Assembly (NCBI GenBank): GCA_031292275.1
Contig: JARLHL010000113.1
Span: 1-64,000 of the forward strand
DNA: 64,000 nucleotides
Origin: Desulfocapsaceae bacterium
GTDB taxonomy: Bacteria > Desulfobacterota > Desulfobulbia > Desulfobulbales > Desulfocapsaceae
Direction: 5' to 3'
Both the position numbers and the translations under genes were made by a program. The notes under the pieces were generated by a model. The model was not told the origin of the DNA, searched no databases, and saw nothing but the letters and a program-made list of their open reading frames with translations. This document shows, one piece after another, positions 33,159-49,205 of the stretch; within the stretch, counting starts at the first letter, position 1; every line of letters begins with the position of its first letter.

Positions 33159-33389
33159 TCCTGCCCTTTGCAGCCTGCCGACGGGCGACCGCGGACCGGC
33201 AATGCCCCTGAAAAGGCAACGTCTCGCCTGGCAGGGATAATGCCGGAGAAGATTTTTCCCCTTGTCGGGACTGAATATCGGCTTATTATAACTTGACGAT
33301 AAAGTCCGGGGCACCTCTTCAGGTTTGGAGTCGCTCGTTTTGATGACCGCCGTTATGCGGCAGCGCAATGTTTTTTTCAGGAGAAGGAA

Positions 33390-34442
33390 ATGCAGTTTTT
33401 CAAGAAAAAGACCCTGACTGGCCTTGCCAGGACCTGCGGCTGAGCAGCGAAAATCGGTCCGGCGGACTTGTCGGACGCGCTCAATGGCCTGCAGTTCAAA
33501 CATGACGCCAACCTCCTGGTCGGGATTGAGACCTCCGATGATGCTGCTGTCTATCGGATTTCCGCGGATGTCGCCATGATCAACACCGTCGATTTCATCA
33601 CCCCGCCGGTTGACGATCCCTACTGGTTCGGCCAGATCGCCGCCGCCAATTCCATATCGGATGTCTATTCCATGGGAGGCAGGCCGCTGACTGCCCTGAA
33701 CGTGGTGATGTTTCCGGCCACCAAGCTCGACATGGGCGTGCTCAAGGAGATCCTGCGGGGCGGAAACGACAAGGTCATTGAGGCCGGGGCCTGTCTGGCG
33801 GGCGGGCACACCGTCGACGACAACGAACCGAAATACGGTCTCTGCGTCAACGGCGTCGTCCACCCGGACAGGATCATAACCAACGCCGGGGCAAGACCCG
33901 GCGACGCGCTGATCCTGACCAAACCCCTGGGATCCGGCGTCCTCTTCAATGCGGTCCGGGCCAGGGTCTTCGACAAAAGGGAACTGGAACGCTCAGTACT
34001 GCCGACCGTGGCACGTCTCAACAACACTGCCATCACCTGCGCCCTGGCCTATGATCTGCATGCCTGTACCGACATCACCGGTTTCGGCATCCTGGGACAT
34101 CTGCTGGAAATGGCGGCAGGAAGCAAGGTCCAGGCCCTGCTCGACTATGCGAACCTGCCCTTCTATGCCGGGGCCCTGGAAATGTATATGAAGGGCCAGA
34201 CCACCGGCAGCAATCGAGCCAACAGGGCCCTGGTGGCGCGCTCTCCTCTGACCATTGACTGCCGGCTCAACCGCTTCCAGGAAGAACTCCTCTACGACCC
34301 GCAGACCTCAGGCGGACTGCTGCTCGCCCTGCCTAAAGCCCAGGCTCAGAACCTGCTGCAGGACCTGCACGGGGCAGGCATTAAAGATGCCGCTCTTGTC
34401 GGCGAGATGGGGGAAGGAAGTCCCGAAATCACCATCCGGTAG
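33390..34442 (+). CDS. selD: Selenophosphate synthetase SelD, itself a selenoprotein (UGA = Sec18)
   Basis: The 350-residue enzyme makes selenophosphate from selenide and ATP for selenocysteine and selenouridine. The gene must be read through an in-frame TGA at 33441-33443: the N-terminus reads KTLTGLARTCG-Sec-AAKIGP, aligning Sec with the catalytic Cys17 of E. coli SelD, followed by the conserved Lys. Downstream DDAAVY, NSISDVYSMGG, AGGHT and DPQTSGGLL are family motifs. The ATG at 33390 follows AGAAGGA. A standard gene caller would start it at 33468 and lose the active site. It implies that selenocysteine insertion genes exist elsewhere in this genome. It converges on a lipoprotein gene. 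Confidence 0.95.
33441..33476 (+). promoter_or_regulatory. selD UGA codon and candidate bacterial SECIS hairpin
   Basis: Thirteen bases after the TGA, GTCCG (33457-33461) and CGGAC (33472-33476) pair perfectly around a 10-base loop containing GGAC and GT. Position and size fit a bacterial SECIS bound by SelB. An alternative smaller stem, GTCC-ggc-GGAC, overlaps it. Confidence 0.6.
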
Positions 34443-38720: not shown

Positions 38721-39386
38721 TCATGCCTTTTTTCTGCGAATCACCGCAAGGCCGGCAAGGCCTGCGCCGAAGAGGATCATGGTTGCAGGCTCAGGAACCG
38801 CAGCCCCGCCGACCGCGCCACCGGAGATAAACTCCTGATTGACATTCCCGGCCGGGGTATAAATCCGTACAGAGCTGTAATCAAAGGTAAGAAGAGGATT
38901 TGTTACGGTCTCAAAGGCCAGCCTCATCCATTCGTCCTCAGCACTGACGTTTGCTAAGGATTCCCCTGAGGTAGCCTCGGGAGAAAATACACGCCACATG
39001 GCAAACTGAATCTGCCCGATTACTGATGCCTCCGTGGCCAGATGTAACTGTGTGTTCAACCAGGCGGCCTCCATATACTTCAACAGGCTGCCAACCGGGT
39101 CGGCGGCATCGTAGAACCTTGCCCCTGTCAGATCCAGGGGAGAAATGGTTCCAATGTTGACTTCAAAACCAGTGTTGGGAATGCTCGTTTTTACATTGAT
39201 ATCCAAACAGGTAATACCACCGTCGATCGCATTCCCGTCCAGATTTGCTGTAAGATCCCCGACCATATGTGTCCCGTAAGTTGGTATTGATGAGCCATTA
39301 ACAGGGATAGTTATGGTACCGGCAAAAGCGGATTGAACAGAAAGCCATACGGCCAACAAAAGGGTAGAAAACGTAACTTTAAACAT
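38721..39386 (-). CDS. PEP-CTERM exported protein
   Basis: A 221-residue exported protein. It has a signal peptide (1-22, LSVQSAFA) and a C-terminal sorting tail: VPEPATMILFGAGLAG followed by a short hydrophobic stretch and RRKKA, the PEP-CTERM signal recognised by exosortase EpsH-type enzymes. The middle, about 23-190, is Ser/Thr/Asn-rich, and the block around IGQIQFAMWRVF is typical of PEP-CTERM proteins of unknown role. Exosortase and exopolysaccharide genes are not in the window but should exist elsewhere in the genome. Two lone cysteines are not conserved motifs. Confidence 0.9.
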   Translation of the reverse strand: MFKVTFSTLLLAVWLSVQSAFAGTITIPVNGSSIPTYGTHMVGDLTANLDGNAIDGGITCLDINVKTSIPNTGFEVNIGTISPLDLTGARFYDAADPVGSLLKYMEAAWLNTQLHLATEASVIGQIQFAMWRVFSPEATSGESLANVSAEDEWMRLAFETVTNPLLTFDYSSVRIYTPAGNVNQEFISGGAVGGAAVPEPATMILFGAGLAGLAVIRRKKA

Positions 39387-41543: not shown

Positions 41544-42086
41544 ATGAATATCGGCACACTCTTAAGAAAATACAGAAAGGAACAAAAATTGACCCTGAAG
41601 TCGGTTGCGGAAAAGGCCTCTATCTCGGAAGGCTTCCTCAGTCAGGTGGAAAATGATGTCAATTCGCCCTCCGTCGACACCCTGATCCGGATCTGCAGCG
41701 CTATAGGCGTCAATGCAGGGGACCTCATCTCCCTGGCCAGCAAACAGGAAAAAATAGTCCTGATAAGAAAATCGGAATGGGACGATATCGACCTGTCCCA
41801 CACCGGCTTTGTAACCCGCCGGTTCTTCCCCCCGGACTCCCGGAGCGTCATCGACACCTCCATCCTGGCGGTCGAGGCGAGCAAGTCGATCCCGGCGCGA
41901 AAAAACATCAAAAACGGCCAGGAGGTCCTTTGCGTGCTGAAGGGCTCCATCGAGCTGATGCTCAGTGACGAGACCATCGAGCTGCGAGAAGGGGACTCCG
42001 TCCATTTCTGGTCCAATCCCGAACGCCAGAAAATCACCAGCACCAGCACCGCCACCAGCTTTGTCCTATGGGTGGGAACCCTTTAA
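41544..42086 (+). CDS. XRE-cupin transcriptional regulator
   Basis: A 180-residue two-domain regulator: an XRE helix-turn-helix at about 5-60 (LTLKSVAEKASISEGFLSQV) and a C-terminal cupin barrel at about 105-178 (NGQEVLCVLKGSIELMLS, LREGDSVHFWS). Proteins of this build bind a small ligand in the cupin and control adjacent catabolic genes, for example PuuR-like regulators. The ATG at 41544 follows GTGAGG. The gene lies between a strong palindromic promoter-operator and, 47 bases on, the thiolase operon, so it very likely controls itself and that operon; the inducer is unknown. Confidence 0.9.
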   Translation: MNIGTLLRKYRKEQKLTLKSVAEKASISEGFLSQVENDVNSPSVDTLIRICSAIGVNAGDLISLASKQEKIVLIRKSEWDDIDLSHTGFVTRRFFPPDSRSVIDTSILAVEASKSIPARKNIKNGQEVLCVLKGSIELMLSDETIELREGDSVHFWSNPERQKITSTSTATSFVLWVGTL

Positions 42087-42133
42087 GCAGACTGTAAAGA
42101 CATCTCAACCACAACCAATGAGGAGACCGGTGT

Positions 42134-43570
42134 ATGATCACATTCAGTAAGCAGCAATTAAAAATCCCCAGACTCCAGAGACCCGTCTATCTGGTGACGG
42201 CAGGCCAGTCCAAATTTGACCGCGCCTTCCCCGACAAACGCACCGAAGAGCTCTGCATCGACGCCTTCGTCATGGCGGCCTCCCTGCTCGATATTTCGCC
42301 TGCCGATCTCAAGCGTTCGATCCACACCTGCTATTACGGCCACTTCGCCGATCATTTCGGAGATCAACTGCTGGGGGAATCTGTCATCCATGACCGGCTG
42401 GGCCTGGATCCCCTGGGAAACGTCGGGGTCAAGACCGGAGGGGCGACAGGCGGATCGACCATATGGGAAGGGGTAAAGGCCGTGGCCTCCGGCTACTCGG
42501 ACTGCGTCCTGGTCATGGGCTGGGAGAGGATGGACGAGGTCCCTACCGACGAGGGCAATTTCCTCATCTCCTGCGCCGCCGACAAGGACTGGGAGTCGCC
42601 GCTGGGCCACATCTATACCGGCTACTATGCCGTCATGGCCCAACGCTATTGGCAGATCTTCGGCAGATCGGAGGATTCTTTCCGCAAGACCCTGGCAGCG
42701 ATCGCCGTCAAACACCACGGCTACGCCCGCTTTAACCCCTTCGCCCATTCGCCGATGAAGATCACCGTCGACGATGTGTTGAATTCGCCGGTTGTGGCCT
42801 ATCCCCTGCATGCCCTGGACTGCTGCCTGATGAGCGTCGGCGCCGCCTGCACCATCCTCTGCGACGAGGAAACCGCCTTTAGACTCACCAAAAACTCCAA
42901 GAATAAACCCCTGCGCATCTGGGCCGCCGCCGGCTCACACACCCTGCGCCCCGCCGATCGGCGGCATATGGACATCCCGCTGCTGCCCCACGAGACCGCC
43001 GATCAGTACAAAGATCTAGGCGAGCGTTTTCCAGGCGGCGAACGTTATCCGGGCTTCACCGGTTTTCTGGCTGCCCGGATGGCCGCCTATTACGGGTACG
43101 GCATGGCCGGCATCACCGACCCCATGGAAGATCTCGATGTACTGGAACTCCACGACGCCTTCACCATCAGCGATGTCCAGACCTATGAGGATATCGGCCT
43201 GCGCCCTTACGGCTATGGCCGTGACTATGTGGAGTCGGGTGACTGCTACCATACCAATCCCCACACCGGACAACCCGGCAGGCTGCCGTCGAATCTTTCG
43301 GGAGGACTCATCGGCTGCATGCACGCGGTGGGCGCCACCGGCATCATGCAGACCCTGGAAGTCGCCACCCACATCTGGAACAGATGGGAGGAGATCCACG
43401 GCGACGAAAAGACCTGGAAAGACTTCAACCGCGAAAAGCCCGACGACTGGACCAGCCTCCAGGTCAGGGGCGCCCGGAGAGGCATGGCCATTAGCCATGC
43501 CGGCGTCGGCTCCCATGTCACGGCCACGATCCTGATGGATCCGGATCATCTTATGAAAAAAGATGCCTAA
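42134..43570 (+). CDS. Thiolase-like protein lacking the usual nucleophilic cysteine
   Basis: A 478-residue thiolase-superfamily protein closest in layout to SCP-x-type and DUF35-partnered thiolases. The late motifs are kept: ELHDAFTISDVQTYEDIGL, the basic His in GGLIGCMHAVGATG, and HAGVGSH in place of the classic C-x-G. But the loop that normally holds the nucleophile (ACASGGxA) reads KTGGATGGST at 100-109, placing Gly103 where Cys is expected. It may therefore do a Claisen or retro-aldol step without an acyl-enzyme, or be a structural subunit. The DUF35 protein starts 12 bases downstream, as in the BbsA-BbsB pair of toluene degraders. The start follows GAGGAGA. Confidence 0.82.
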   Translation: MITFSKQQLKIPRLQRPVYLVTAGQSKFDRAFPDKRTEELCIDAFVMAASLLDISPADLKRSIHTCYYGHFADHFGDQLLGESVIHDRLGLDPLGNVGVKTGGATGGSTIWEGVKAVASGYSDCVLVMGWERMDEVPTDEGNFLISCAADKDWESPLGHIYTGYYAVMAQRYWQIFGRSEDSFRKTLAAIAVKHHGYARFNPFAHSPMKITVDDVLNSPVVAYPLHALDCCLMSVGAACTILCDEETAFRLTKNSKNKPLRIWAAAGSHTLRPADRRHMDIPLLPHETADQYKDLGERFPGGERYPGFTGFLAARMAAYYGYGMAGITDPMEDLDVLELHDAFTISDVQTYEDIGLRPYGYGRDYVESGDCYHTNPHTGQPGRLPSNLSGGLIGCMHAVGATGIMQTLEVATHIWNRWEEIHGDEKTWKDFNREKPDDWTSLQVRGARRGMAISHAGVGSHVTATILMDPDHLMKKDA

Positions 43571-43582
43571 AGGAGGGCTATC

Positions 43583-44173
43583 ATGAGCATGCACGGACAG
43601 GTTTTTGTCAAAAACAACCAGTACAAAATGAGAGGCGACTTCCATCACCTGACGCCCAACACCCCGATCCGCGACGCCGATAACGGCTGGAGGCTTTTGG
43701 GTGTAACCAACCCAAGGGATATGACCTACATCCATTCCTATGGCGGCGAGGCGGTCTTCTTCGAATCGCTGAGCCAGAAAAAGCTGCTGGCAACACGCTG
43801 TGACAACAGAAATTGCGAGAGTGAGGGGACTATCCATATCCCCTTCCGGATCCATTGTCCGGACTGCCTTGCCAGAAACACCATCATCGATCTGACGGAT
43901 ATTGCCAAAAAGACCGCCCGCATCCACACCTTCATGGTCTGCGCGCGGTCCGGGGCCTTCAATGTACTGGCAAAACCCATCACCTTCATCAATATCGAGT
44001 TCGACGGTGTGCCGACGATCCTGATGAGCTATCTCAGTCTTGGCGAACCGGCCTTCGGGATGAAGGTAGTGCCGATTTTCAAGACCAGTGAGCCGACCTT
44101 CACCATTCTGGACCTCTCCTGGGTCCCGGAGGGAACAAAAAATAACCAGCTTCCCGAGGGCTTCGCCTTTTAA
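43583..44173 (+). CDS. DUF35 zinc-ribbon/OB-fold protein, thiolase partner
   Basis: A 196-residue protein of the DUF35 type: a zinc ribbon with C-x4-C (CDNRNC) and C-x2-C (HCPDC) at about 74-95, then an OB-fold (VLAKPITFINIEFDGVPTIL). In archaeal and anaerobic systems such proteins bridge thiolase and a second CoA enzyme or hold the CoA thioester. An extended N-terminus of about 70 residues is longer than usual. It is 12 bases behind the thiolase-like gene with AAAGGAGG before the ATG, so a complex of the two products is likely. The gap to the ligase gene is 209 bases with no supported gene. Confidence 0.85.
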   Translation: MSMHGQVFVKNNQYKMRGDFHHLTPNTPIRDADNGWRLLGVTNPRDMTYIHSYGGEAVFFESLSQKKLLATRCDNRNCESEGTIHIPFRIHCPDCLARNTIIDLTDIAKKTARIHTFMVCARSGAFNVLAKPITFINIEFDGVPTILMSYLSLGEPAFGMKVVPIFKTSEPTFTILDLSWVPEGTKNNQLPEGFAF

Positions 44174-44382
44174 TCCGGGCACCGGTCCGCACATCGCATG
44201 TCCAAAAAGGGGAAGGCCCTGGGCCCCTGGCGGGTCACCGATTGGCAGGAAAAGGGATTTTAACGGTGTCTTGCCAGAAACCGAATCTTGAGATCGCAGA
44301 CATTATCACTTCAGGGAATCTTGAACAGGGAGGCTCGCATTCAAGATTACCTTCACTATCTTACATTGAGGGGGAGGTGAAA

Positions 44383-46038
44383 ATGCAGAGGCCAGACATC
44401 ACAGCGGGAAAAATGACCATCAGTGACATGGTAGATATTCTTGCAGAAAATTTTGGAAATTCCATTGGGCTGGAATATCACGAACTGGGCATCAGGCACA
44501 ATTTCAGACAGTTGCGGGAACTCTGGGACCAGGTTGCCAAAGGCCTGATGGCCCTGGGTATCGCCCGGGGTGACAAGGTCGCCATCTGGGCCAACAACCT
44601 GCCGGAATGGGTCTATACCCAATATGGAAGCGCCCGGATGGGGGCGGTCCTTGTCACCGTGAACACCAACTACCGCAGCAGTGAACTTGAATATCTGCTC
44701 CGGCAGTCCGACGCCACAACCCTTATCCTGACCGGCGGGGTACGTGAGCCTTACGAGTACATCAGGATCCTGAACACGGTCTGCCCGGGCATCGCTGACA
44801 GCAGGCCCGGGAACCTCAGCGAAAAAAATCTCCCTTTTTTGAAAAACATCCTCTACCTGGGAAAAGAGAACATTGCAGGGATGTACAACTGGGACGAGGT
44901 CCTGAGGAGGGGGGAGACGGTCACGGATCCGGAATTTCAGGCAAGACGGGCCCAGCTTCGGCCCGATGATGTCATCAATATGCAGTACACCTCGGGAACG
45001 ACTGGATTTCCCAAAGGGGTCATGCTCTCCCATACCAACCTGATAGGCAATGCGCTCAGCATGGCCGAGTGCATGAAGCTGACTTCCGACGATACGATGT
45101 GCATCCCTGTCCCCTTCTTTCACTGTTTCGGCTGTGTTATTGGCACTCTCACCTGCATGGTCTCCGGCGCCGCCATGGCCCCCGTGACCTCCTTCAGCGC
45201 CGCCGATGTGCTTCGGACTGTCGAGGCCTCGCGATGCACGGCCCTTCTCGGGGTGCCGACCATGTTTATTGCCGAATTCGAAGAAATGGACAGGCAGGCC
45301 TATGATACTTCCTCGCTGCGTACCGGCGTCATGGCCGGCTCCACCTGCCCCGTCGAGGTCATGAGACGGGTGATCGAGGACATGGGGGCGAAGGAGATGA
45401 CCATCGTCTACGGCCAGACCGAGGCCTCACCCGGCATCACCCAGACCAGGGATCACGATTCTCTGGAGCTGAAGACCACCACGGTCGGCCGGGCCCTGCC
45501 CCACGTCGAGGTCAAGATCGTCGACCCGGTCACCGGAGAGGAACTGCCTGTTGGCCAACAGGGAGAACTCTGTACCCGGGGTTATCATGTCATGAAGGGA
45601 TACTACAAGATGCCCGAGGCCACAGCCAGGGCGGTGGACAAGGACAACTGGCTGCATACCGGCGATCTCGGCGTTATGGACGCCAACGGCTACTGCAGCA
45701 TTACCGGCAGGATCAAGGACATGATTATCCGGGGCGGAGAAAACATCTACCCCCGGGAGATCGAGGAGTTCCTCTATCTCCACCCCAAGGTCAAAGATGT
45801 CCAGGTGGTCGGCGTCCCCAGCAGAAAATATGGAGAAGAGGTGGCGGCCTTCATCCTGCTCAAACCTCGGGAGGAGGCCACGGACAAAGAGATGGCCGCC
45901 TTCTGCAGGGAGCGGATATCTTTTCACAAGATTCCGAAATACTTCTTCTTTGTAGATCAGTTCCCCACAACGGCCAGCGGCAAGATCCAGAAATACAAAC
46001 TGAGGGAGATCGCGAAAACGCGCCTGGAAGGGTGCTGA
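44383..46038 (+). CDS. Acyl-CoA ligase (AMP-forming, medium/short-chain type)
   Basis: A 551-residue ANL-family enzyme that activates a carboxylic acid with ATP and CoA. The P-loop is YTSGTTGFPKGVMLSH, followed by VYGQTEASP, HTGDLGVMD and the hinge GRIKDMIIRGGENIYP; the catalytic lysine of the C-domain is in TASGKIQKYKL. The sequence resembles FadK/AcsF-like fatty acyl-CoA synthetases. In this operon the likely substrate is a branched short acid such as isovalerate, by association with the dehydrogenase downstream. The ATG at 44383 follows GGGGAGGTG. Confidence 0.92.
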   Translation: MQRPDITAGKMTISDMVDILAENFGNSIGLEYHELGIRHNFRQLRELWDQVAKGLMALGIARGDKVAIWANNLPEWVYTQYGSARMGAVLVTVNTNYRSSELEYLLRQSDATTLILTGGVREPYEYIRILNTVCPGIADSRPGNLSEKNLPFLKNILYLGKENIAGMYNWDEVLRRGETVTDPEFQARRAQLRPDDVINMQYTSGTTGFPKGVMLSHTNLIGNALSMAECMKLTSDDTMCIPVPFFHCFGCVIGTLTCMVSGAAMAPVTSFSAADVLRTVEASRCTALLGVPTMFIAEFEEMDRQAYDTSSLRTGVMAGSTCPVEVMRRVIEDMGAKEMTIVYGQTEASPGITQTRDHDSLELKTTTVGRALPHVEVKIVDPVTGEELPVGQQGELCTRGYHVMKGYYKMPEATARAVDKDNWLHTGDLGVMDANGYCSITGRIKDMIIRGGENIYPREIEEFLYLHPKVKDVQVVGVPSRKYGEEVAAFILLKPREEATDKEMAAFCRERISFHKIPKYFFFVDQFPTTASGKIQKYKLREIAKTRLEGC

Positions 46039-46072
46039 GACCTCTTCTCCCGCCAAGCAGATGAGGAAGGCC

Positions 46073-48022
<1,950 letters not shown>

Positions 48023-48035
48023 TTGGAGAGAGCGC

Positions 48036-49205
48036 ATGAAGACATATTCTTTCTTGAATTTTGGCCTGGGAGAGACCGCCGGCCTGCTACGCGAGTCGGT
48101 CCGCGACTTCGTCCGCAGCAAGATCGCCCCTCTGGCGGCCGAGATCGACCGCAACGACTCCTTCCCGCCAGAGCTCTGGCAGCAGATGGGAGAACTGGGC
48201 CTTCTGGGCATCACCGTCCCCGAAAGGTACGGCGGCGCGGAGATGGGATATTTAGAACATGTCATCGCCATGGAGGAGATCAGCCGGGGCTCGGCAGCAG
48301 TGGGACTGGCCTACGGGGCCCATTCGAACCTCTGCGTCAACCAGATCAAGCTGAACGGCACCGAGGAGCAGAAACAGCGTTATCTGCCCGGCCTGGTCGC
48401 GGGGAAGCAGATCGGCGCCCTGGCCATGAGCGAGGCAGGTGCCGGTTCCGATGTGGTCGGCATGCGCCTTGCCGCAGTAAAAAGAGGGGATTGCCACATC
48501 CTGAACGGAACCAAGATGTGGATCACCAACGGCCCTCATGCCGATGTCCTCGTCGTCTACGCCAAGACCTCGCCTGAGAGAAATCAGCAGGGGATCACCG
48601 CCTTTCTGGTGGAAAAGACCATGCCGGGATTTTCCACCAGCCCCAAGCTGGACAAGCTGGGCATGCGCGGCTCTCCCACATGCGAGCTGGTCTTCACCGA
48701 CTGCGCGGTTCCCGATTCCCATATCCTTGGCCGACCGGACCAAGGAGTACACGTGCTGATGAGCGGGCTGAACTTTGAACGCCTGGTACTGGCCGGCGGC
48801 CCTTTGGGGATAATGGCGGCCTGCATGGACGTGGTGCTGCCCTACATCCACAGCCGCCGGCAATTCGGCAGGGCCATCGGCGAATTTGAACTGATGCAGG
48901 GCAAGCTTGCCGATATGTATGCGACCTGGAACGCCTGCAGATCCTATGTCTATACCGTGGCACGGGCGGCAGATCGCGGCGGCGGCATCAGGAAGGACGC
49001 CGCCGCCGCGATCCTCTATGCGGCGGAAAAAGCGACCTGGATGGCCCTGGAAACGATCCAGTGCCTGGGCGGCAACGGCTATATCAATGACTATCCGGCC
49101 GGCAGGTTTCTGCGTGACGCCAAGCTCTATGAAATCGGCGCCGGCACCAGCGAGATCCGACGGATGCTCATCGGCCGGGAACTCTTCCAGGATACGATGG
49201 AATAG
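48036..49205 (+). CDS. Acyl-CoA dehydrogenase, isovaleryl-CoA dehydrogenase-like
   Basis: A 389-residue FAD enzyme. [13 protein letters not shown] and [19 protein letters not shown] are family motifs. The catalytic base fits isovaleryl-CoA dehydrogenases: E248 in [17 protein letters not shown] rather than the C-terminal Glu of other members, where Gly (EIGAG) is found. This supports oxidation of isovaleryl-CoA in leucine or isovalerate breakdown. Methylcrotonyl-CoA carboxylase, needed next, is not in the window, nor is an ETF. The ATG at 48036 follows GGAGAG. It ends the operon and meets the efflux genes head-on at a hairpin. Confidence 0.92.

Follow-up and report, generated by a model that had tools for sequence, protein, structure and literature searches.

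A cysteine-free, DUF35-partnered thiolase-like protein family in a branched-chain acyl-CoA operon of a Desulfocapsaceae bacterium: a candidate for aldolase-type chemistry

The 64,000-nucleotide stretch of DNA analysed here (positions 1 to 64,000 of contig JARLHL010000113.1, assembly GCA_031292275.1; hereafter the window) is from a Desulfocapsaceae bacterium, and at positions 42134-44173 encodes a thiolase-like protein together with a DUF35-type partner. The thiolase-like protein belongs to a clade of single origin that retains the thiolase fold, has lost both catalytic cysteines, and carries a strictly conserved set of histidines, one of them moved. The pair is tentatively regarded as a heteromeric coenzyme A (CoA) enzyme that may promote aldol-type C-C cleavage of a short branched 3-hydroxyacyl-CoA without an acyl-Cys intermediate, a reading considered plausible while somewhat short of probable. 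A first-pass annotation, made from the sequence alone, had suggested an undescribed CoA enzyme complex, a claim that stands only in part: Cys-free thiolases with DUF35 partners are already known as a kind (Ltp2-ChsH2, Sal-Shy) and the family has been modelled (NF004982), whereas the clade, its His-based active site and its branched-chain operon appear to be undescribed in the literature searched.

Active-site residues and fold of the thiolase-like protein

Residue counts were taken from an alignment of 65 Cys-free homologues and 17 related Cys-bearing thiolases. The claim that the loop KTGGATGGST (residues 100-109) carries Gly in place of the nucleophilic Cys was borne out: HMMER alignment with PDB sequences placed the Cys of both the archaeal acetoacetyl-CoA thiolase (6ESQ) and BbsB (7PXP) at Gly103, a position occupied by Gly in 65/65 Cys-free homologues and by Cys in 17/17 comparison thiolases. 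In the AlphaFold2 model, helix 102-118 begins at Gly103, and we take this helix N-terminus to be the normal position of the thiolase Cys. The second catalytic Cys, that of the HDCF motif, was replaced by Ala342 in all 65 Cys-free sequences and was present in all 17 Cys thiolases, although BbsB and 7YVY likewise lack it. Because Gly103 and Ala342 are thus invariant where the comparison thiolases have Cys, both catalytic cysteines are, as judged from the alignment, gone.

The basic His of MHAVGATG (His397) has been kept, as had been proposed, and both it and His340 were invariant in the Cys-free and Cys-bearing groups alike. The accompanying claim that the SCP-x-type His remains holds for His340 and fails for His453, the HN[ILV]GG residue of 17/17 Cys thiolases, which is Ile in the window protein: the third catalytic His has been displaced by two residues, from 453 to 455, in the Cys-free clade. 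Other invariants gained by that clade comprised D73-H74-F75, Y161, R272 and R315, so that the His set H74, H340, H397 and H455 was strict in 65/65 Cys-free homologues. Loops 73-78 and 136-150 of the model were of low confidence, and the placement of His74 is therefore unsure.

A different Cys serving as a hidden nucleophile, of which C124 had been the first-pass annotation's example, was ruled out, no Cys being both invariant and clade-specific. C124 was present in 48/65 Cys-free homologues and replaced by Val, Thr or Ser in the other 17, with the model placing it at the start of strand 124-131, and because of this variability it is not a substitute nucleophile. C395 was kept in 53/65, and C231, although found in 64/65 Cys-free homologues, also occurred in 14/17 Cys thiolases.

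The thiolase fold is present in the AlphaFold2 model (pLDDT 88.0, pTM 0.91), with Z scores of 46-48 to archaeal thiolases. Counting matches less than 1 Z apart as ties, the order of similarity was 4YZO (48.2), 7YVY (47.8), 6ET9 (46.4), BbsB (44.5), PhlC (42.3), Ltp2 (41.3) and Sal (39.8). Profile searches gave E-values of 1e-45 to 9MYR (Sal-Shy) and 1e-39 to 6OK1 (Ltp2-ChsH2), both weaker than those to Cys thiolases. The protein is a full-length match to NF004982/PRK06365 ('thiolase domain-containing protein'; E 8e-209), a model with no function attached, where its 694.0 bits lie just below the curated cut-off of 695 and eight relatives exceed it (699-718 bits).

The archaeal acetoacetyl-CoA thiolase-DUF35 system resembles the window pair in fold (Z 46.2-46.4), DUF35 partner, His340 and His397, but retains the nucleophilic and HDCF cysteines and has no His455. 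The benzoylsuccinyl-CoA thiolase BbsAB shares the fold, a Zn-finger DUF35 subunit and the motif HDAF; by way of contrast, BbsB keeps its nucleophilic Cys and functions in an aromatic pathway. The best fold match, ST0096 of Sulfolobus tokodaii (4YZO), has Ser rather than Cys at the aligned nucleophile place, and differs from the window protein in its loop (DNTSGSGG) and its HDMA motif. It is a Cys-free thiolase-like protein that already has a crystal structure, and is to our knowledge functionally uncharacterised.

The DUF35 partner and the origin of the clade

The DUF35 zinc-ribbon/OB protein had been placed 12 bases downstream of the thiolase-like open reading frame (ORF), and was confirmed there in the same orientation. 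In VIA comparisons its model was best matched by Shy, the partner of Sal (9MYR_B, Z 12.6), in a tie with 3IRB (12.4) and 6HTJ (12.3), followed by ChsH2 (11.5), the DUF35 protein of 6ESQ (9.8) and BbsA (8.8). Pfam scores fell under the gathering cut-offs (PF12172 zf-ChsH2, 13.0 against 23.2 bits; PF01796 OB_ChsH2_C, 16.1 against 27.1 bits), with 28/32 and 21/32 DUF35 orthologues, respectively, matching these families at E up to 1. Despite these sub-cut-off scores, assignment of the modelled partner as a DUF35-type protein with a predicted zinc ribbon and OB fold holds, because of the structure matches and the invariance among DUF35 partners of the four Cys zinc ligands (C73, C78, C92 and C95).

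The possibility that loss of the Cys is common to a clade was confirmed by a careful tree of 22 sampled Cys-free sequences (Ltp2 and Sal not included), with ordinary AtoB thiolases as the root and the columns of the trait itself taken out, in which all 22 formed one clade (support 100/98); in a larger quick tree all 65 Cys-free sequences grouped together (SH-aLRT 95). The Cys-free clade is of single origin. Members of its main subclade, 74-92% identical to the window protein, occurred in Desulfobulbales, other Desulfobacterota, Myxococcota, Spirochaetota, Krumholzibacteriota, Latescibacterota, Planctomycetota, Neomarinimicrobiota and Aminicenantes among the bacteria, and in Lokiarchaeota and Thermoplasmatota among the archaea; Desulfopila aestuarii (L029) and Desulforhopalus singaporensis are cultured carriers. 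Many carriers are metagenome bins, and single odd taxa could be mis-binned.

Two further Cys-free thiolase-like families were encountered. One consists of tandem pairs with a TGGTTG loop and Tyr-x-Pro in place of HDAF, accompanied by tandem DUF35-like genes (L094:11442-14712, L095:11379-14621, L099:13175-15567 and L085:1247-3013); these tandems adjoin BKACE and the main pair in Lokiarchaeota, and one such pair was found in a spirochaete. The other has a GGATG loop, HDAF, the His kept at 453 and a DUF35-like neighbour (L083:583-1779, L086:3801-5033 and L092:3661-4890), and possibly represents an intermediate state.

Operon and gene neighbourhoods

The pair lies within a run of six co-directional genes at 41544-49205 (Table 1).

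Table 1. Genes of the window cluster and diagnostic codons of the thiolase-like protein
Feature	Coordinates	Strand	Basis or remark
Helix-turn-helix (HTH; Cro/C1) regulator with weak cupin domain	41544..42086	+	Pfam HTH_3 8e-13, Cupin_2 6e-06; first gene of the cluster
Cys-free thiolase-like protein, 478 aa	42134..43570	+	NCBIfam NF004982/PRK06365-type
His74 codon, in DHF motif (73-75)	42353..42355	+	65/65 Cys-free, 2/17 Cys thiolases
Gly103 codon, at the thiolase nucleophilic Cys place	42440..42442	+	Alignments and model
HDAF motif (His340-Phe343), Ala342 for the second catalytic Cys of HDCF	43151..43162	+	
His397 codon (MHAVGATG), kept catalytic His	43322..43324	+	65/65 and 17/17
His455 codon (SHAGVG), new invariant His	43496..43498	+	65/65
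DUF35-type partner, 196 aa, zinc ribbon (C73, C78, C92, C95) and OB fold	43583..44173	+	
AMP-forming acyl-CoA ligase	44383..46038	+	NF009233 763 bits, below cut-off 832
Acetoacetyl-CoA synthetase	46061..48022	+	TIGR01217 903.6 bits, cut-off 520.9
Isovaleryl-CoA dehydrogenase (IVD)	48036..49205	+	phmmer and motifs

Homologues of the regulator adjoin the thiolase-like gene in 33 of the clustered loci. The acyl-CoA ligase probably starts at ATG 44383 and the IVD at ATG 48036, the longest ORFs running from TTG 44242 and TTG 47994, respectively. The dehydrogenase of the cluster is, on sequence criteria, an IVD, because its phmmer match to the solved IVD 4O5M (8.7e-181) far exceeds that to the best non-IVD family (7e-94) and it carries the IVD motif YEIGAGTSE; ERLVLAGG is also present. 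Promoter and terminator scans yielded no signal higher than that from shuffled sequences. Among same-family relatives with the gene, most have the whole gene set or nearly so, their thiolase-like proteins being 88-92% identical; a more distant relative (G033) has a divergent copy (44%) beside acetoacetyl-CoA synthetase and another acyl-CoA dehydrogenase.

Main-clade context was assessed at 43 named loci flanked on either side by 3.5 kb or more, or 50 when relatives partly duplicating these were included. A DUF35-like gene adjoined the thiolase-like gene in 50/50 loci with both flanks. An acyl-CoA dehydrogenase was nearby in 36/43 named loci, as in 16/17 both-flank loci of other subclades, and an acetoacetyl-CoA synthetase (>45% identity) in 11/43, drawn from several phyla. 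In three loci (L089, L091 and L096) the DUF35 gene was followed by one resembling enoyl-CoA hydratase. One bait sequence for 3-hydroxyacyl-CoA dehydrogenase, the enzyme of a step that a true thiolase route needs, found no match in the 50 main-clade loci. CoA transferases were present in 5/6 f41 loci, and CoA transferase or BKACE genes in Smithella, a spirochaete and Lokiarchaeota, BKACE being recorded in the latter two.

In three deeper subclades the pair has as neighbours an isobutyryl-CoA-mutase-type enzyme (both subunits, large and small, and MeaB), CoA transferases or AtoB, the mutase being recorded in 5/6, 2/7 and 3/4 of their both-flank loci. We know of no aldol step recognised for such mutase-type genes. 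The residues of the neighbouring mutase (Phe at MCM Tyr89, Gln at MCM Arg207 and Ala at HcmA Asp117) would fit isobutyryl-CoA-type substrates lacking a second carboxylate; identity as a 2-hydroxyisobutyryl-CoA mutase was ruled out by the Ala at Asp117 and by Phe at Ile90. The cluster resembles the isobutyrate-isomerisation cluster of Syntrophothermus (PMC5017805). The theme common to these various contexts is short branched acyl-CoAs plus free acetoacetate.

Elsewhere in the window, a PEP-CTERM-type exported protein with the tail VPEPATMILFGAGLAGLAVIRRKKA is encoded at 38721-39386 (minus strand). The frame of a SelD-like ORF at 33300-34442 runs on upstream through one in-frame TGA (RTCG*AAKIGP), and because this TGA falls at the usual active-site Sec/Cys place, the window SelD is probably itself a selenoprotein.

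Candidate reactions

The first-pass annotation looked to archaeal HMG-CoA (3-hydroxy-3-methylglutaryl-CoA) synthesis and BbsA-BbsB for DUF35 precedents, and thereby missed a closer mechanistic one. Ltp2-ChsH2 and Sal-Shy are Cys-free thiolase-fold steroid retro-aldolases, each with a DUF35 partner. In Sal, Gly occupies the nucleophile place, and the enzyme cleaves a 3-hydroxyacyl-CoA by a retro-aldol reaction in its DUF35 complex, the catalytic pairs being Tyr302/Cys304 in Sal and Tyr294/Tyr344 in Ltp2 (PMC12329534). That the characterised DUF35-partnered relatives without the nucleophilic Cys are retro-aldolases argues, by analogy, for an aldolase reading of the window pair. Sal-Shy, the bile-acid side-chain aldolase of Comamonas testosteroni (9MYR), shares with it the fold, the Gly and the DUF35 partner, and Ltp2-ChsH2 the fold without thiolase chemistry, the DUF35 partner and its operon logic. 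In the Ltp2 operon that logic combines an acyl-CoA dehydrogenase, a hydratase and the aldolase, and the gene logic of the present family matches such a sequence. The recurrent acetoacetyl-CoA synthetase, CoA transferases and BKACE also speak for an aldolase, as does the negative result with the single 3-hydroxyacyl-CoA dehydrogenase bait in the 50 main-clade loci.

The differences are equally clear. Sal has YDCY where the window protein has HDAF, and the DUF35 domain of Shy is fused to a hydratase, and has a Cys3His1 zinc site in place of Cys4; the Sal-Shy substrate is a steroid. Ltp2 deploys Tyr294 (YDHF) as base and Tyr344 as acid on a steroid C17 tertiary alcohol. The catalytic Tyr of YD[H/C][F/Y] is missing from the window family, its place being taken by His340 in 65/65. 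With the Tyr replaced by His and Cys304 of Sal by Ala, the family is, on present residue evidence, not an Ltp2/Sal-type steroid aldolase and is like them at best, because a different acid-base set would be needed.

Since the nucleophile has been lost while the rebuilt His set is strictly kept, the pair is better read as an active enzyme unable to form the usual acyl-Cys. Beyond the residue inventory, we infer that the two proteins would form a complex in which an invariant His (340, 397, 455 or 74) takes the proton off the 3-hydroxyl, whereupon the C-C bond would break to leave a CoA-ester enolate held in the thiolase oxyanion hole; reprotonation by another His would then yield acetyl- or propionyl-CoA together with a carbonyl compound, a ketone or aldehyde, in free form. 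For the window operon acetoacetate would be the simplest choice for that compound, to be captured by acetoacetyl-CoA synthetase, and the carbon source may be isovalerate or leucine, entering via IVD.

Several observations weigh against this aldolase reading. The mechanism of Ltp2 and Sal is not transferable, because their base Tyr (YDxF/Y) is replaced by the His of HDAF; both sequence and fold are nearer to Cys thiolases (7YVY, 6ET9) and to 4YZO than to the aldolases; and three subclades adjoin the isobutyryl-CoA-mutase-type genes. Nor is it explained where an HMG-CoA-like substrate would come from, since the window operon has no hydratase gene and an orthologue of the methylcrotonyl-CoA carboxylase (MCC) beta subunit was absent from 9/10 genomes with the family.

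A more specific form of the proposal is that the pair is a non-homologous replacement for HMG-CoA lyase, or opens a biotin-independent leucine-isovalerate route, converting a branched 3-hydroxyacyl-CoA into acetyl-CoA plus acetoacetate (or a ketone) by His-based chemistry, in anaerobes that have IVD and acetoacetyl-CoA synthetase and no recognisable MCC or HMG-CoA lyase; so specified, it is doubtful. The host genome (99.98% complete) gave no match to HMG-CoA lyase at E <= 1e-40 and no MCC beta orthologue, the best candidate being 34% identical and located beside propionyl-CoA-pathway genes, so that its IVD is left without the usual downstream route. HMG-CoA lyase was absent from 7/10 genomes with the family. 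The canonical isovalerate route through MCC and HMG-CoA lyase is present in Desulfococcus multivorans (PMC5109826). One relative (G028) carries both the Cys-free operon and a canonical leucine/isovalerate cluster (HMG-CoA lyase, MCC alpha and beta, hydratase and IVD; L149:6805-13279), and the two routes therefore need not be equivalent. Against the classical HMG-CoA lyase model (NF004283) the pair gave no match, matching thiolase and DUF35 models only, and could at most be an analogue. Acetone carboxylase (PF08882), as would serve acetone formed from 3-hydroxyisovaleryl-CoA, was not found in 58 relatives, a weak negative in that the controls gave no match either; the acetone pathway of Desulfococcus biacutus was dropped as a match because neither DUF35 nor an aldolase is mentioned there.

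Decarboxylation or other enolate chemistry, in which a malonyl-CoA-like or beta-keto acyl-CoA is bound and the enolate stabilised after loss of CO2, is considered unlikely. Cys-less ketosynthases stabilise an enolate in this way, the kept His340 and His397 would suffice for it, and mutase-type genes do lie beside the deeper subclades; those mutases are, however, of a type whose substrates have no second carboxylate. The precedents are divided, in that malonyl-CoA is slowly decarboxylated by TbSLP, which is thiolase-like yet has no thiolase activity, but not by Sal (PMC12329534).

That the protein is a thiolase after all, cleaving or making a 3-ketoacyl-CoA with another Cys or free CoA as the nucleophile, is improbable. 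Among the solved structures nearest in fold the majority are indeed Cys thiolases, the DUF35 thiolase BbsAB also has HDAF, and C231 is widely conserved; set against this, both thiolase cysteines have been lost together, the catalytic His has been displaced, and none of the remaining cysteines is at once invariant and clade-specific.

That the pair works towards synthesis, condensing an acetyl-CoA enolate with a ketone or acetoacetate in an aldol-type reaction, either like HMG-CoA synthase or to make a branched acyl-CoA, is improbable too: aldol chemistry is reversible, DUF35 connects the archaeal sister thiolase to the HMG-CoA synthase that it supplies, and the gene is present in Lokiarchaeota and Thermoplasmata, but acyl-CoA ligase, IVD and acetoacetyl-CoA synthetase make a catabolic-looking operon, and the hosts, to judge by their names, are mostly sulfate reducers or fermenters. 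The first-pass annotation had offered either a different C-C bond reaction or a scaffold role, of which the former is now the better supported; a non-catalytic scaffold or CoA-binding chaperone holding acyl-CoA dehydrogenase, mutase or acetoacetyl-CoA synthetase, comparable to the DUF35-bridged HMG-CoA synthase complex, is equally improbable, for although DUF35 proteins link enzymes to one another in PhlABC and in the archaeal synthesis of HMG-CoA (PMC12329534) and the pair travels with several acyl-CoA enzymes, the identity maintained from Desulfobulbales to Lokiarchaeota and the absolutely conserved polar residues rebuilt around the old active site exceed the needs of a scaffold.

A protein that stays 74-92% identical between sulfate reducers and Lokiarchaeota, and whose catalytic site has been rebuilt, must serve an important function. 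Because the nucleophilic Cys is missing, thiolase function is very unlikely for this database-labelled 'thiolase-domain protein', and as a consequence of the misassigned label a wrong step has probably entered the reconstructed metabolism of many Asgard archaea and uncultured anaerobes. Should the pair prove to be an aldolase, the thiolase fold would have an aldolase branch outside steroid breakdown that works with His and no Cys, and this may account for the handling of branched-chain acids by some anaerobes that use no carboxylase.

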